Assembly (NCBI GenBank): GCA_016209155.1
Contig: JACQWU010000040.1
Coordinates: 1-5,948, forward strand
Direction: 5' to 3'
Length of the DNA stretch: 5,948 nt
Source of the DNA: Candidatus Desantisiibacteriota bacterium
GTDB taxonomy: Bacteria > JACRDZ01
Position 1 is the first letter of the stretch. Each line of letters begins with the position of its first letter. A program made the translations under genes and the position numbers. The notes beneath the pieces were generated by a model, which was not told the DNA's origin, made no database searches, and saw only the letters and a list, made by a program, of their open reading frames with translations. Positions 1,920 to 5,760 of this stretch are shown one piece after another.

Positions 1920-2990
1920 TTATTTACCTTTATCGGTTTTCCTGGGTGTATAGGTACAATATGGTTCCGGAGCAAGATAATCGCCTGTAACAGCATAAGC
2001 GCGGGCTCTGCATCCTCCGCATACGGTACGGTACTCGCATATACCGCATTTACCCCTGTATCCATCTATATTTCTCATTTCGTTAAATATTTTTGATGTT
2101 TTCCATATTAATGAGAAAGGTTCTTTTTTTATATCACCGCATTCTTCTTCAAGAAATCCGCATATCTGCACTTTGCCGGTATTGGAAATAAAAGCAAAAC
2201 CTGTTCCTCCCATACATCCTTTTGTCATGGCATCCATCCCGTGCGATTTAACTGTTACAGTTCTTCCAGCGGCTTTTTCCTGTTGTCTGTAAATACGATA
2301 ATAATGAGGCGCGCAGGTCGGTTTAAACTGAATGGGAATATTATTTCTTTGGTTGTAGATCCAAAGCAGAGTTTTTTCGTAATCTTCAGGCGATATTTCC
2401 TGGTCGGCAAGATCTTTCCCTCGACCTGTCGGTACCAGAAGAAACGGATGATAAGCTTTTGCTCCAAGTGCAACAGCTAATTTAAGTATTTCCGGAACTT
2501 CATGGATATTGATTTTTGTAATTGTAGTATTAATCTGGAATTCCAGTCCGACAGTGTTTGCGCATTCTATTGCTTTCATAACTCCGGCAAATGCGCCTTC
2601 CTGCTGGCGGAATTTGTCATGGGTTTCGCTTGTTGCGCCATCAATACTCAGGCTTATTCTTTGTATCCCGACTTCTTTCATGAGGTTTGCTTTTTCAATA
2701 TTCATTAAAGGTCCGCAGGGCGCCATGACCATGCGCAGACCAAGATCTGTCCCCTTTTTTGCTATTTCAAAAATATCATCGCGCATCATTGGTTCGCCGC
2801 CGGTAAGAATAATAATCGGTTTGGCAAATGTTGCCACATCTTCAAGAAATGAAAAACATTCCGCTGTGGTTAATTCTCCTTTGTATTTACCGCGTGTAGC
2901 TGCTGCTCTACAGTGAATACAGGACAGTACACAGCTCCTTGTCACTTCCCATGCTATCAAACGCGGCAGATATTCCTGATTTTGCATCAT
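1920..2990 (-). CDS. ahbD: AhbD-type radical SAM heme b synthase (Fe-coproporphyrin III decarboxylase)
   Basis: The product is a 356-residue radical SAM/SPASM enzyme. The SAM-cluster motif is C20-x3-C24-x2-C27, followed by GGEP (64-67). The C-terminal auxiliary cluster region has C259, C277, C284 and the string C315-x2-C318-x5-C324-x2-C327-x17-C345. Stretches such as LPRLIAWEVTRSC, KPTCAPHYYRIYRQQ (223-237), GMDAMTKGCMGGTGFAFIS (251-269) and VCGGCRARAYAVTGDYLA (323-340) match AhbD as I remember it, rather than AhbC or NirJ. AhbD converts two propionates of iron-coproporphyrin III to vinyls, the final step of siroheme-dependent heme synthesis, in the cytoplasm. AGGAG (3000-3004) lies 9 bases before the ATG, and a second ATG follows directly. 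It is the first gene of the operon, behind a promoter at 3118-3148. No other ahb gene lies in the window, so the pathway must be encoded elsewhere. Confidence 0.87.
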   Translation of the reverse strand: MMQNQEYLPRLIAWEVTRSCVLSCIHCRAAATRGKYKGELTTAECFSFLEDVATFAKPIIILTGGEPMMRDDIFEIAKKGTDLGLRMVMAPCGPLMNIEKANLMKEVGIQRISLSIDGATSETHDKFRQQEGAFAGVMKAIECANTVGLEFQINTTITKINIHEVPEILKLAVALGAKAYHPFLLVPTGRGKDLADQEISPEDYEKTLLWIYNQRNNIPIQFKPTCAPHYYRIYRQQEKAAGRTVTVKSHGMDAMTKGCMGGTGFAFISNTGKVQICGFLEEECGDIKKEPFSLIWKTSKIFNEMRNIDGYRGKCGICEYRTVCGGCRARAYAVTGDYLAPEPYCTYTPRKTDKGK

Positions 2991-3028
2991 TTATTTTTTC
3001 TCCTTTAATTCATATTTCATATATAACA

Positions 3029-3110
3029 ATTCAGGTATAAAGGCTGAAGACTGAAGTATATTAGGATTTGTACCTAAAAGCCTTCCCCCCTTCAGTCTAT
3101 TCACCTGAAT
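3029..3110. repeat. Nested fold-back element in the ahbD leader
   Basis: Three sets of arms nest around one centre. The outer arm is ATTCAGGT 3029-3036 with ACCTGAAT 3103-3110. The middle arm is AGACTGAAG 3048-3056 with CTTCAGTCT 3090-3098. The inner arm is TTAGG 3061-3065 with CCTAA 3073-3077. A competing pairing exists between AAGGCT (3040-3045) and AGCCTT (3079-3084). The right half (3074-3111) is also found at 3925-3961. The element lies between the predicted ahbD start of transcription and its ribosome site, so it would fold in the ahbD mRNA. It also lies downstream of the cupin gene. It may be a dispersed palindromic repeat or a regulatory leader; the sequence alone does not decide. Confidence 0.6.
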
Positions 3111-3111
3111 A
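3074..3111 (-). repeat. Leader repeat, copy A (reads toward ahbD)
   Basis: Read on the minus strand this 38-base stretch starts TATTCAGGTGAATAGACTG and ends GGCTTTTAG. It aligns with the plus-strand copy at 3925-3961 in 33 of 38 columns, with four substitutions and one gap. Its first bases, with one base upstream, form a small hairpin, CTATTC-AGGT-GAATAG. It begins 7 bases after an ATATAA sequence in the predicted -10 region. Confidence 0.7.
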
Positions 3112-3117
3112 GTTACG

Positions 3118-3148
3118 TTTATATTACAAAATATAAATTTAATGTCAA
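3118..3148 (-). promoter_or_regulatory. Predicted vegetative promoter for the ahbD operon
   Basis: On the minus strand a perfect -35 TTGACA (3148-3143) is followed by two overlapping -10 candidates: TAATAT (3126-3121) after 16 bases and TATAAA (3123-3118) after 19 bases. Neither spacing is the ideal 17, but the -35 is exact and the site lies in the only gap upstream of ahbD. Transcription would start near 3111-3114, at the edge of the leader repeat. Confidence 0.5.
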
Positions 3149-3162
3149 GTGAAAAGGTTCTT

Positions 3163-3666
3163 TTACTCTTTTGTTAATGCTATGATAAATTTTTTATATT
3201 TGGGATAAATTTTTATCAAAGTTTTTCTGTCTCCTGATTTATAATCTTTAAATTCAAATCCCGGAGCAACTGTTGTTCCCATAATGGCGAATTTTCCGCC
3301 TGATACAAGTCTTGCTCCCTGCCATACTCCTTTTTTGACAATAACCTGAGGTCTCATAGCTTTTTCAATATTATTGCCTATTGTAATTATTTTACCTGAA
3401 CCGTCAGGATATAAATTGAGCATTTCAACAGGGTCCCCAAGATAAAAATGGAATATTTCATCTGATATAAGCGAGTGCATTTCGGAAAAAGTTGAAGGAG
3501 TTAAAAGATAATAAATAGCAGTGCTTATACATCTTTTTCCTTTATATCTTCTCGGCAGATATTTTCCGGAAATATTTTCATCTGAACGGTAGGTCTCTAA
3601 ATAGTATCCACCTTCAGAAGGATGAGGTTTAAGATTAAGAGCTTTTATTAATTTTTTTAGATCCAC
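3163..3666 (-). CDS. DUF985 / cupin_5 family protein
   Basis: From the GTG at 3666-3664 the product is 167 residues, the usual size for this single-domain cytoplasmic cupin family. Family landmarks in order are LNLKPHPSEGGYYLETYRSDE (10-30), TAIYYLLTPSTFSEMHSLISDEIFHFYLGDP (49-79, with H64, E70, H73), and GVWQGARL (113-120) with APGFEFKDY (134-142). The biochemical function of DUF985 proteins is not established; the fold suggests small-ligand or metal binding. I chose this start because AGGA (3674-3677) lies 7 bases upstream, family similarity begins here, and the predicted promoter at 3694-3722 would start the RNA near 3687. A longer reading from a GTG at 3747 would start upstream of that and read through a palindromic repeat. 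It is a single gene, divergent from the sigma factor. Confidence 0.85.
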   Translation of the reverse strand: MDLKKLIKALNLKPHPSEGGYYLETYRSDENISGKYLPRRYKGKRCISTAIYYLLTPSTFSEMHSLISDEIFHFYLGDPVEMLNLYPDGSGKIITIGNNIEKAMRPQVIVKKGVWQGARLVSGGKFAIMGTTVAPGFEFKDYKSGDRKTLIKIYPKYKKFIIALTKE

Positions 3667-3693
3667 GAGAATATCCTGTATTAATTTTTTTAT

Positions 3694-3722
3694 AGTATAG
3701 CATTTTGCCGGAAATTTCCCAA
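3694..3722 (-). promoter_or_regulatory. Predicted vegetative promoter for the cupin gene
   Basis: On the minus strand, -35 TTGGGA (3722-3717, 4 of 6 to consensus) and -10 TATACT (3699-3694, 5 of 6) are spaced by exactly 17 bases. The RNA would begin about 20 bases before the GTG start chosen at 3666. Confidence 0.55.
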
Positions 3723-3732
3723 GAAAGAAATT

Positions 3733-3845
3733 AACCACAGAGGGCACAGAGTATTTTATTTTTTTTACTCTGTGTTCTCAAGGAAAATTAATTTGAGGAC
3801 ACAGGGTTTTTATAATTATAAATATATCTCAGTGTGCTCAGTGGT
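3733..3845. repeat. 113-bp fold-back repeat with AACCACAGAG termini
   Basis: The outer arms are AACCACAGAGGGCACAGAG (from 3733) and its imperfect complement ending CTCAGTGGTT (to 3845), pairing at 16 of 20 positions. An inner pair, ACTCTGTGTTCTCAA (3767-3781) against TTGAGGACACAGGGT (3793-3807), matches at 13 of 15. The CACAGAG/ACACAG repeats within arms resemble dispersed sequences I recall from many environmental genomes; that recollection is not verified here. No transposase is present, so it would be a non-autonomous or REP-like element. Confidence 0.6.
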
Positions 3846-3890
3846 TCGTTTTTTTGTTTTTGTAGAATTTCTGATATTTTGCGAAAAAGC

Positions 3891-3919
3891 ATGTCAATTT
3901 TTTAGTTATACGATATAAT
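3891..3919 (+). promoter_or_regulatory. Predicted vegetative promoter for the ECF sigma operon
   Basis: A perfect -10 TATAAT (3914-3919) follows a 17-base spacer from -35 ATGTCA (3891-3896, 4 of 6). Transcription would begin near 3926, at the first bases of the leader repeat. It looks like a housekeeping promoter; I see no obvious second copy of an ECF-type -35 AAC motif close by. Confidence 0.55.
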
Positions 3920-3924
3920 TCAAA

Positions 3925-3961
3925 TATTCAGGTTAATAGATTGAAGGTGGAAAGCTTTTAG
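3925..3961 (+). repeat. Leader repeat, copy B (reads toward the sigma factor)
   Basis: This 37-base stretch begins TATTCAGGTTAATAGATTG and ends AGCTTTTAG. It is the plus-strand counterpart of the minus-strand copy at 3074-3111. It begins 6 bases after ATATAA (3913-3918), nearly the same offset from the -10 region as in copy A. Unlike copy A it has no adjoining inverted half, and its first hairpin is weaker (TATT with AATA). Confidence 0.7.
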
Positions 3962-3994
3962 TTTAAAATATTGTAAAGGATACAAAAGATAATA

Positions 3995-4507
3995 ATGGAA
4001 GAACAAAAACTACTGGAAAAAATTCGAGCGAATGATCCTTCTTTTATTAAGGAATTATTTGATACATATAAGACCATGGTCTTTAATGTTTGTTTCCGGA
4101 TGTTAGGGAAAAAAGAAGAGGCAGAGGATCTAATGCAGGATGTTTTTTTTACAGCTTATAAATCCAATGCGTGCTTAAATCTCCAGCGGAAAAGGAAATT
4201 GGAGAAATGGCTTTCACTGGATTTTTTATTGGAGAGCAAAAGGGAACAAATCCCTCATAGTCAGAATGACACTCCTCTTGAAGCATTAGAAAAATCCGAG
4301 CGAGAAAATATTGTCAGAAATGCTATAAATTCACTTCCTGATAATCAGCGTATATCAATAATTTTGAGCAGATATGAAAATTTATCATATCAGGAGATTT
4401 CTAAAATAATGGAATGTTCGGTTTCATCAGTGGAATCCTATTTATTCCGTGCGAAACAGAATCTTGCTAAGAAGCTAATTTCTATTTTTGAAAATTCATT
4501 ATTGTAA
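3995..4507 (+). CDS. ECF-type RNA polymerase sigma factor with a shortened region 2.4
   Basis: The 170-residue product has sigma region 2 and region 4 and lacks regions 1.1 and 3, as in ECF sigma factors. Region 2.1-2.2 is clear at residues 15-57, including the core-binding AEDLMQDVFFTAYK (43-56). Region 4.2 is clear at about 113-161, with LPDNQRISIILSRYENLSYQEIS and SVSSVESYLFRAKQNLAKKL forming the helix-turn-helix. Between W72-L73 and the next segment SLDFLLESKRE (74-84), the usual YRIAxN-like residues of region 2.4, which read the -10 element, appear to be absent; neither other frame restores them. The ATG has only a weak ribosome site. The stop codon lies inside a palindromic repeat. It is followed by an anti-sigma factor and a metal-sensor-like gene, so it probably directs a metal or envelope stress response. 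It could also be a decaying sigma factor. Confidence 0.88.
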   Translation: MEEQKLLEKIRANDPSFIKELFDTYKTMVFNVCFRMLGKKEEAEDLMQDVFFTAYKSNACLNLQRKRKLEKWLSLDFLLESKREQIPHSQNDTPLEALEKSERENIVRNAINSLPDNQRISIILSRYENLSYQEISKIMECSVSSVESYLFRAKQNLAKKLISIFENSLL

Positions 4508-4531
4508 AGACGCAATGCCTTGCGTCTTTAC
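4504..4531. repeat. Palindromic repeat GACGCAA type, copy 1, supplies the sigma-factor stop codon
   Basis: The arms GTAAAGACGCAA (4504-4515) and TTGCGTCTTTAC (4520-4531) pair perfectly over 12 bases around the loop TGCC. The TAA stop of the sigma factor (4505-4507) lies in the left arm. A second copy sits about 130 bases downstream. The hairpin could slow RNA decay or weaken readthrough into the anti-sigma gene, but only CTGTTTATT follows it, which is a poor terminator tail. Confidence 0.75.
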
Positions 4532-4633
4532 CTGTTTATTATGAAATTTTGAGAGGATACGATTTATAACCGCAAGTTTTTTGCATAGCATGTGTCTAAT
4601 TTAATATAAGGAAATTTAATATATATTATTATT

Positions 4634-4673
4634 GTAGAGACGCAATGCCTTGCGTCTCAATGCCTTGCGTCTC
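4634..4673. repeat. Palindromic repeat GACGCAA type, copy 2, with a 15-bp tandem duplication
   Basis: The unit begins GTAGAGACGCAATGCC and repeats the core of the copy at 4504. Its right arm is duplicated: AATGCCTTGCGTCTC occurs at 4644-4658 and again exactly at 4659-4673. Both copies of the repeat are preceded by ATTATT. It lies 24 bases before the anti-sigma start codon. Confidence 0.75.
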
Positions 4674-4697
4674 AGCATTTTAATAACGGTAAAAAAT

Positions 4698-5180
4698 ATG
4701 AATCATAAAAATATTCAGAAAAAATTTCTGTTTTATATTGACGGGAACCTGCCGGCAAGCGAGATGAATATGGTGAAGGAACATATTAGTCTTTGTCCTT
4801 TATGCAGTAAACATCTGGATGAAATTTCCGAAATTTGGAAACAGGAAAAAATTTTGGAAGAGAGAGAGCCGTCACCCTACATATGGAAAAAATTGGAAAA
4901 AAATATCAGGGAATATGAGAATAATAAATATACGTTTTTATATATTGATATAAAAAAGCGTTTTGATTTTTTAATGCGCCCGGTATTGCTTTCTTTTATG
5001 CTTTTTATAGCAATTATCACAGGATATTATTTAGAAAATTTTTTATCAAACAATATTGATCTTAACGCGGATGTCGCTAATGAGCAAATCACAAAAATAT
5101 TTTATATAGATACTTTAAGTTATTCTACGATGGAATCTATTCATAATAGAGACCTTCCTGCGTATAATGAAAATAAATGA
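4698..5180 (+). CDS. Membrane anti-sigma factor with zinc-type N-terminal domain
   Basis: From the ATG at 4698 the product is 160 residues. The N-terminal cytoplasmic domain holds H29-x3-C33-x2-C36, the core of zinc-binding anti-sigma (ZAS / zf-HC2) domains, with H3 in the place often held by a further ligand. A single hydrophobic span follows at about 94-115 and then a short outside tail of about 45 residues without a recognisable domain. The expected role is to hold the upstream ECF sigma factor at the membrane until a signal arrives. I prefer this ATG to a TTG at 4650, because the extra 16 residues would be encoded by the palindromic repeat and the ZAS similarity begins after the ATG. The ribosome site is weak (CGGT). 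The gap of 190 bases from the sigma gene is large for such a pair. The stop codon runs into a hairpin. Confidence 0.82.
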   Translation: MNHKNIQKKFLFYIDGNLPASEMNMVKEHISLCPLCSKHLDEISEIWKQEKILEEREPSPYIWKKLEKNIREYENNKYTFLYIDIKKRFDFLMRPVLLSFMLFIAIITGYYLENFLSNNIDLNADVANEQITKIFYIDTLSYSTMESIHNRDLPAYNENK

Positions 5181-5211
5181 AGAATCTCGCAGCAAGCTGC
5201 GAGGTATCTTC
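5179..5211. repeat. Hairpin overlapping the anti-sigma stop codon
   Basis: An 8-bp stem CTCGCAGC (5186-5193) / GCTGCGAG (5196-5203) with a 2-base loop is extended after a small internal loop by GAAGA (5179-5183) / TCTTC (5207-5211). The first two bases are the last two of the TGA stop. TGTTTCTG follows, a weak T-tract, so partial transcription termination before the sensor gene is possible; a dispersed palindrome is equally possible. Confidence 0.55.
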
Positions 5212-5256
5212 TGTTTCTGATAGGAATTTTTATTGTTTAATTTAGTGCCGATTCAT

Positions 5257-5278
5257 CGTAAGCCTTAAAAGGCTTACG
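5257..5278. promoter_or_regulatory. Palindrome upstream of the metal-sensor-like gene, possible operator or repeat
   Basis: CGTAAGCCTT (5257-5266) and AAGGCTTACG (5269-5278) are perfect 10-base arms two bases apart. Short outer arms GTGC (5245-5248) / GCAC (5287-5290) frame it. It lies 25 bases before the ribosome site of the next gene. Its symmetry would suit a dimeric repressor or an RNA hairpin, but the neighbourhood is full of palindromic repeats, so it may be just another. I see no convincing -35/-10 pair in 5212-5300. Confidence 0.4.
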
Positions 5279-5313
5279 TATTAACAGCACTTCCAGATAA
5301 GTGAGGTATGAAT

Positions 5314-5760
5314 ATGAATAAGAAATGGTTCTTAATAGTCGTTATAATTTTGACAATAATAAATATTTCAGTTTTAGGCACATATACATTAAGACGCAGG
5401 TATCATGGCAGAGAGAACTATGGTTTAGGTAAAGACGAACATTTTAGGCATCTTAAAAGAAAGCTTGGTCTCACAAACGAGCAGGTAGTAAAAGTAAAAA
5501 ATTACAGAAATAAATTTAATCCGAAAATAGAGGTTTTATCAAAAACAATAAAAGAAAGAAGGCTTAATCTTGTTAAAGAATTAATGAAAGAATATCCGGA
5601 TTCAACTAATATTGGATATATACTTAATCAATTGGATTCATCACATTCTGCGCTTCAGCATGAAGTCGTGAATCATCTTTTGGCGGAAAAAGGGATTTTT
5701 ACTCATGAGCAGCAGGAAAAGTTTTTTTCTATTGTTTTAAAACGCTGTTCGGAAAGATGA
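5314..5760 (+). CDS. Membrane-anchored His-rich CnrX/ZraP-like periplasmic metal-sensor family protein
   Basis: From the ATG at 5314 the product is 148 residues. An uncleaved-looking hydrophobic anchor spans about 5-24, followed by RRR and a helical outside domain. LGLTNEQVVKVKNYRNKFNPKIEVLSKTIKERRLNLVKEL (51-90) is the long helical hairpin typical of the Spy/CpxP/ZraP/CnrX and heavy-metal-resistance group. Histidines at 31, 43, 46, 111, 116, 121 and 131 could bind metal; H121 lies in a C-terminal helix where, from memory, CnrX has a histidine ligand, but the methionine four residues later is E125 here. Start 5314 is preferred because GAGG (5303-5306) lies 7 bases upstream; the ATG at 5308 is too close. 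After the sigma and anti-sigma genes, a role in signalling metal or envelope stress to the anti-sigma factor is likely. The metal cannot be read from sequence. Confidence 0.72.
   Translation: MNKKWFLIVVIILTIINISVLGTYTLRRRYHGRENYGLGKDEHFRHLKRKLGLTNEQVVKVKNYRNKFNPKIEVLSKTIKERRLNLVKELMKEYPDSTNIGYILNQLDSSHSALQHEVVNHLLAEKGIFTHEQQEKFFSIVLKRCSER

Follow-up and report, generated by a model that had tools for sequence, protein, structure and literature searches.

Two copies of a short repeat lie on opposite strands near the middle of the stretch of DNA analysed here (the window, 5,948 nucleotides), each immediately behind a promoter-like site and each ahead of a gene. The features of this region are as follows.

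1920..2990, minus strand: radical SAM/SPASM protein gene (PF04055, PF13186), downstream of the left copy; called ahbD in the earlier, sequence-only reading and placed here at family level only
3015..3022, no strand: possible decayed 8-bp target duplication, downstream side, TTTCATAT; 6/8 match with 3117-3124
3023..3116, minus strand: left copy, a complete MITE-like element, 94 bp imperfect palindrome GTAACTATTCAGGTG...ACCTGAATTGTTAT; covariance-model match of 92 bits at 3025-3115, fold, and ends alignable with the GTAAC...GTTAC ends of relatives
3074..3111, minus strand: the 38-mer of the sequence-only reading, which is the left arm of the left copy; hand alignment, inverted-pair search, shuffle test
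3117..3124, no strand: possible decayed 8-bp target duplication, upstream side, GTTTATAT; 6/8 match with 3015-3022
3121..3148, minus strand: promoter-like site immediately upstream of the left copy, TTGACA-16-TAATAT; consensus match only
3163..3747, minus strand: Cupin_5 (DUF985) gene, PF06172, same-direction upstream neighbour of the left copy; the gene caller's start is 3738
3891..3919, plus strand: promoter-like site immediately upstream of the right copy, ATGTCA-17-TATAAT; consensus match only
3925..3961, plus strand: right copy, the left half of the element without its right arm; 23-mer search, comparison of copies
3995..4507, plus strand: ECF-type sigma factor gene (Sigma70_r2, Sigma70_r4_2), downstream of the right copy

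The stretch 3995-5760 reads in one direction; besides the ECF sigma factor it encodes two proteins whose Pfam matches stay below the cut-off, one like a zinc-finger anti-sigma protein and one like a metal-resistance protein. A second dispersed palindrome, found at dozens of places in the genome, occurs there as GAGACGCAATGCNTTGCGTCT and GAGACGCAAAATTTTGCGTCT between the sigma-factor and anti-sigma genes (4507-4528 and 4637-4672).

The repeat itself was confirmed by re-alignment. By hand alignment, TATTCAGGTGAATAGACTGAAGGGGGGAAGGCTTTTAG (3111-3074, minus) and TATTCAGGTTAATAGATTGAAGGTGG-AAAGCTTTTAG (3925-3961, plus) are identical in 33 of 38 columns, with four mismatches and one gap, and the two copies form the longest inverted pair of the window (38 nt, 82% complementary, ungapped). 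Chance is excluded, because a 23-mer from the left arm has two matches in the window where shuffles lead one to expect 0.00. The extent of 38 bases first given to the repeat holds for the matching part only: the left copy is a palindrome of about 94 bp (3023-3116), and the right copy is the left half alone. Folding agrees with this arrangement, the segment that contains the left copy (2990-3125) reaching -35 kcal/mol (z = -3.9) and the right copy folding barely beyond its shuffles (z = -1.5).

The genome-wide search proposed for the 38-mer was run with the 23-mer. With up to three mismatches it matched 40 places in the 3.08 Mb genome, both window copies included, and the reversed-pattern control matched none. 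A covariance model built from 25 aligned near-complete copies then gave at least about 63 distinct places plus six left-half copies, a lower bound given that 150 of 2449 candidates were scored, and a right-arm pattern search added several more. The genome thus carries at least about 70 copies, and of the two explanations offered at the outset, a shared leader or a dispersed repeat, the second was the right one. The genes that follow the copies are unrelated to each other and include an alpha/beta hydrolase, a YacP-like NYN protein, an amidase and others. Among 40 other genomes, three of them from the same phylum and none from the same family, no match to the element was found, and with it no orthologous empty site for the window copies. 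At two loci (L012 near 1580, L018 near 1530), copies of the element contain or immediately adjoin a third palindrome, GTAGGGCAAGGCTTTAGCCTTGC, which suggests nested insertions.

The placement of the copies is far from haphazard. The genes for this census came from a home-made caller whose training set was 14 long contigs from the same genome, and all 69 copies fall outside the genes so called. Of these, 47 lie in sense and four in antisense between tandem genes (binomial p 2e-10); the others lie between divergent genes (11), between convergent genes (4) or at contig edges (3). Of 66 copies, 36 (34 sense, two antisense) are in tandem gaps that measure at most 60 bp once the element's length is subtracted; gaps of this size make up 9.4% of background intergenic bases (p 4e-20). 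Where the upstream gene is in sense, its stop codon is no more than 10 bases away from where the element starts in 29 of 52 copies; in 29 cases the stop codon falls within the first 45 bases of the element. The sequence-only reading held that random orientation and distance would mark a plain dispersed repeat. Dispersal is borne out, and random placement is not, since the copies are mostly sense (47:4) and close before start codons; "plain dispersed repeat" therefore undersells the element.

Promoters provide no general rule of placement. Each window copy does lie behind a consensus-like site, ending at 3121 (minus) and 3919 (plus), as first proposed, yet the 8 sites of this kind in the region do not significantly exceed the 5.6 +/- 2.4 expected. 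Across the genome 27.7% of copies have a -10-like box ahead of them, against 24.3% in letter shuffles. The -10 boxes ahead of both window copies are thus not part of a general pattern, and the idea that the repeat tends to land at promoters finds no support genome-wide.

The origin of the element becomes apparent from its relatives. Named genomes contain more than 107 stretches with the same arm, mainly in Desulfobacterota, Nitrospira and other Nitrospirae, Nitrospinota and Brocadiaceae. Their better-kept form is about 190 bp long, running from GTAACTATTCAGGTGGATAGACTGAAGGTAGAAGGCTAATAGGGACAAATC ATGCGTGATCACACAAAACTGCGGGCATTTGAG... to CTTCAGCCTTCAACCTGAATAGTTAC, and its ends are GTAACTATTCAGGT...ACCTGAATAGTTAC, terminal inverted repeats that begin 5'-GTAA; the corresponding ends of the left window copy are GTAACTATTCAGG..CCTGAATTGTTAT. 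An open stretch inside these relatives translates to MRDHTKLRAFELADEIAVLV*, the start of the S23 protein. At L230, L239/L276, L245 and L277, ends of this kind enclose an intact S23 gene that begins in the same way, and the encoded protein matches 23S_rRNA_IVP (PF05635) at E = 2e-31. Because the interior of the relatives is an S23 start, and because intact S23 genes occur between the same ends, the small elements are best read as internal deletions of an S23 element. The window copies hold no S23 (PF05635) coding sequence, which relatives with such ends do have; three other copies of the genome (L008, L020, L037) retain decayed S23 starts by hand reading, L020 having been translated.

In some instances the remnant appears to have been drawn into the gene behind it, as at three loci the start of a host gene coincides with the S23 start site or lies close to it. 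In C20 (L221, G000:C20, minus strand, gene 3669-4580), the frame of the alpha/beta hydrolase opens with MRDNTKPWTFEITDELAILMYLV, an S23 beginning, so that an S23-derived N-terminus stands directly behind the element's ribosome-binding site; the true start may be an ATG further inside the frame, which precedes a signal-like stretch. The YacP-like NYN gene of C131 starts eight bases after TTTTTAGG, which is the S23 start position, and the amidase gene of C269 starts 10 bases after TTTTAGG.

A likely means of mobilization is indicated by the ends and flanks. For the 47 elements of relatives whose ends are clean, flank identity at 8 bp averages 0.574 against 0.303 in shuffles, other lengths being at background, and ten of the 47 have perfect 8-bp duplications. 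One nested element interrupts another repeat, paralogues of which carry the target site once. The intact S23 elements L276 and L277 are without a clear 8-bp duplication, and the copies of the genome under study, taken as a set, give no such signal; their outermost bases are mostly degraded. These copies are old, as the loss of most outer bases and duplications shows. The left window copy alone among them hints at a duplication, with a 6/8 match whose chance of arising (at least 6/8) in the local AT-rich stretch is about 0.006.

Ends beginning GTAA together with 8-bp duplications are characteristics of IS66 (PMC11946415), and the GTAA ends are reported elsewhere as well (PMC12888890). The genome encodes an IS66 transposase of its own (C12), whose element end, GTAACTATTCAG, is identical to that of the repeat element over 12/12 bases; just one end is on the contig and the frame is possibly broken. 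In another element-bearing genome the IS66 ends are GTAACTACTCAGGTA. From the GTAA ends, the 8-bp duplications and the 12-base-identical end of the resident IS66, mobilization in trans by IS66 would be the likeliest mechanism for the GTAAC lineage. It would not account for the S23 family as a whole, because the arms of most other S23 genes are built quite differently, from short phrases that recur, and lack GTAAC. An S23 gene of the genome studied here (L154, G000:C29:13955-14269) is intact (PF05635, E 9e-37), has inverted arms of the AGTGTAAGTG type and is flanked by two same-direction genes that by eye resemble CRISPR cas genes.

Taken together, the window copies are best explained as what is left of a MITE-like element, dispersed and non-autonomous, that derives from an S23 (PF05635) element through internal deletion, a reading to which a probability of about 0.78 is assigned. 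Observed directly are the copy number, the palindrome, the S23-derived interior, the intact S23 genes and 8-bp duplications of relatives, and the sense orientation at gene junctions; we infer the action of IS66 in trans and selection for sense. An internal deletion of the S23-encoding element would have left a palindromic element unable to move by itself, and an IS66-family transposase could have recognised its GTAACTATTCAG ends and moved it in trans. The S23 gene, presumably having no promoter of its own, would rely on host transcripts. In sense, the element would let translation of the operon go on by supplying stop codons and a ribosome-binding site; antisense insertions would tend to be lost, so that the bias would arise mostly by selection. 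In the genome studied here, what remains would be old copies, some of them reduced to the 5' half.

The orientation rule seems to be common to S23 elements in general. Fifty distinct S23 genes gave 37 sense and two antisense cases between tandem genes. This count depends on the home-made caller, may include S23 genes that are regular members of their operons, and draws on neighbouring genomes that are not independent of each other. The small S23-remnant elements of relatives stand at 13 sense to two antisense, and a pattern-defined set that includes nearly symmetric elements shows a weaker bias (33 to 18). Intact S23 elements whose arms are of a very different type likewise sit shortly after upstream stop codons. 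Random insertion by IS66 does not by itself predict this bias, and the simplest cause, which is assumed here, is selection for uninterrupted operon translation.

One could also suppose that S23 elements insert strand-specifically at intercistronic junctions, directed by transcripts or R-loops, and that IS66 moved one side lineage only. S23 is not known to have reverse transcriptase or insertion activity. An equally strong bias in intact S23 elements with such different arms (37:2), and their position close after upstream stop codons, would fit this idea, as would the kinship of S23 with Avd, the accessory protein of DGRs (PMC10053308). The 8-bp duplications of the GTAAC lineage, however, point to a DDE transposase, and selection alone could explain the bias; strand-specific insertion is thus considered unlikely.

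A structured 5' leader RNA, riboswitch-like or otherwise shared, that co-regulates the radical SAM and ECF sigma operons is far less probable still. It would suit the position of both window copies at predicted transcription starts, the strong sense bias ahead of start codons and the good fold of the left copy. The element's copies, at least about 70, precede unrelated genes, however, and many begin at the stop codon of the upstream operon gene and not after a promoter. The half copies are unable to form the stem, and none of 13 stem pairs shows a compensatory change, a weak test given that the search patterns favoured conserved arms. The window has no Rfam match, and the interior is a decayed S23 gene. 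The earlier proposal of a shared leader linking heme synthesis to a stress sigma factor is accordingly unsupported; in the window, each copy would be no more than a section of the 5' leader of its gene, and the two genes are unrelated. Equally doubtful is a REP/REPIN-type palindrome moved by a Y1 (RAYT) transposase: the palindromes are short and dispersed and the genome has six Y1 transposases, but no element copy lies in the loci of these genes (L031-L036), the terminal inverted repeats and 8-bp target duplications of relatives are unlike single-strand Y1 transposition, and the interior derives from S23.

The MITE-like remnant can be set beside several known systems. S23/IVP elements are mainly known as inserts in rRNA genes. 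In the intervening sequence (IVS) of the 23S rRNA of Coxiella burnetii (PF05635; PMC4990558), as in the elements described here, an S23 coding region lies between complementary arms that could form a long stem, which is here a predicted one; the present elements would also, like the IVS, rely on transcription by the host, and both decay through internal loss. Unlike the IVS, the present copies lie between protein genes in a window with no rRNA, lack S23, have many dispersed relatives and belong to a GTAAC lineage with 8-bp target duplications. With IS66-family MITEs they share ends beginning GTAA, the 8-bp target duplication (in relatives) and, as its one matching end suggests, perhaps a resident IS66 as source of transposase; they differ in an interior that comes from an S23 element and not from IS66, and in their strong sense orientation at operon junctions. 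REP/REPIN elements with RAYT are likewise short, dispersed, intergenic palindromes, from which the present elements differ in their target duplications, their S23 interior and the lack of any link to the Y1 genes of the genome.

A literature search found no account of intergenic S23 elements as mobile units, and a remnant of transposition is one of the listed hypotheses for the IVS (PMC4990558). It is conceivable, at somewhat less than even odds, that S23/IVP elements are widespread, sense-only hitch-hikers that settle after the stop codons of operon genes in several phyla, and that one lineage with GTAACTATTCAG ends, mobilized by IS66, spawns MITE-like derivatives and donates leaders and start codons. 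Shared leaders of this type should not be taken for regulons. The interest of the finding is the parent S23 family and its orientation rule. The latter, at 47:4 here and 37:2 in intact S23 elements, is an unexplained constraint on any model. The movement of IVS elements, and any part that S23 may have in it, becomes open to test in a lineage whose ends are transposase-like, which shows 8-bp duplications and whose end is shared by a resident transposase.
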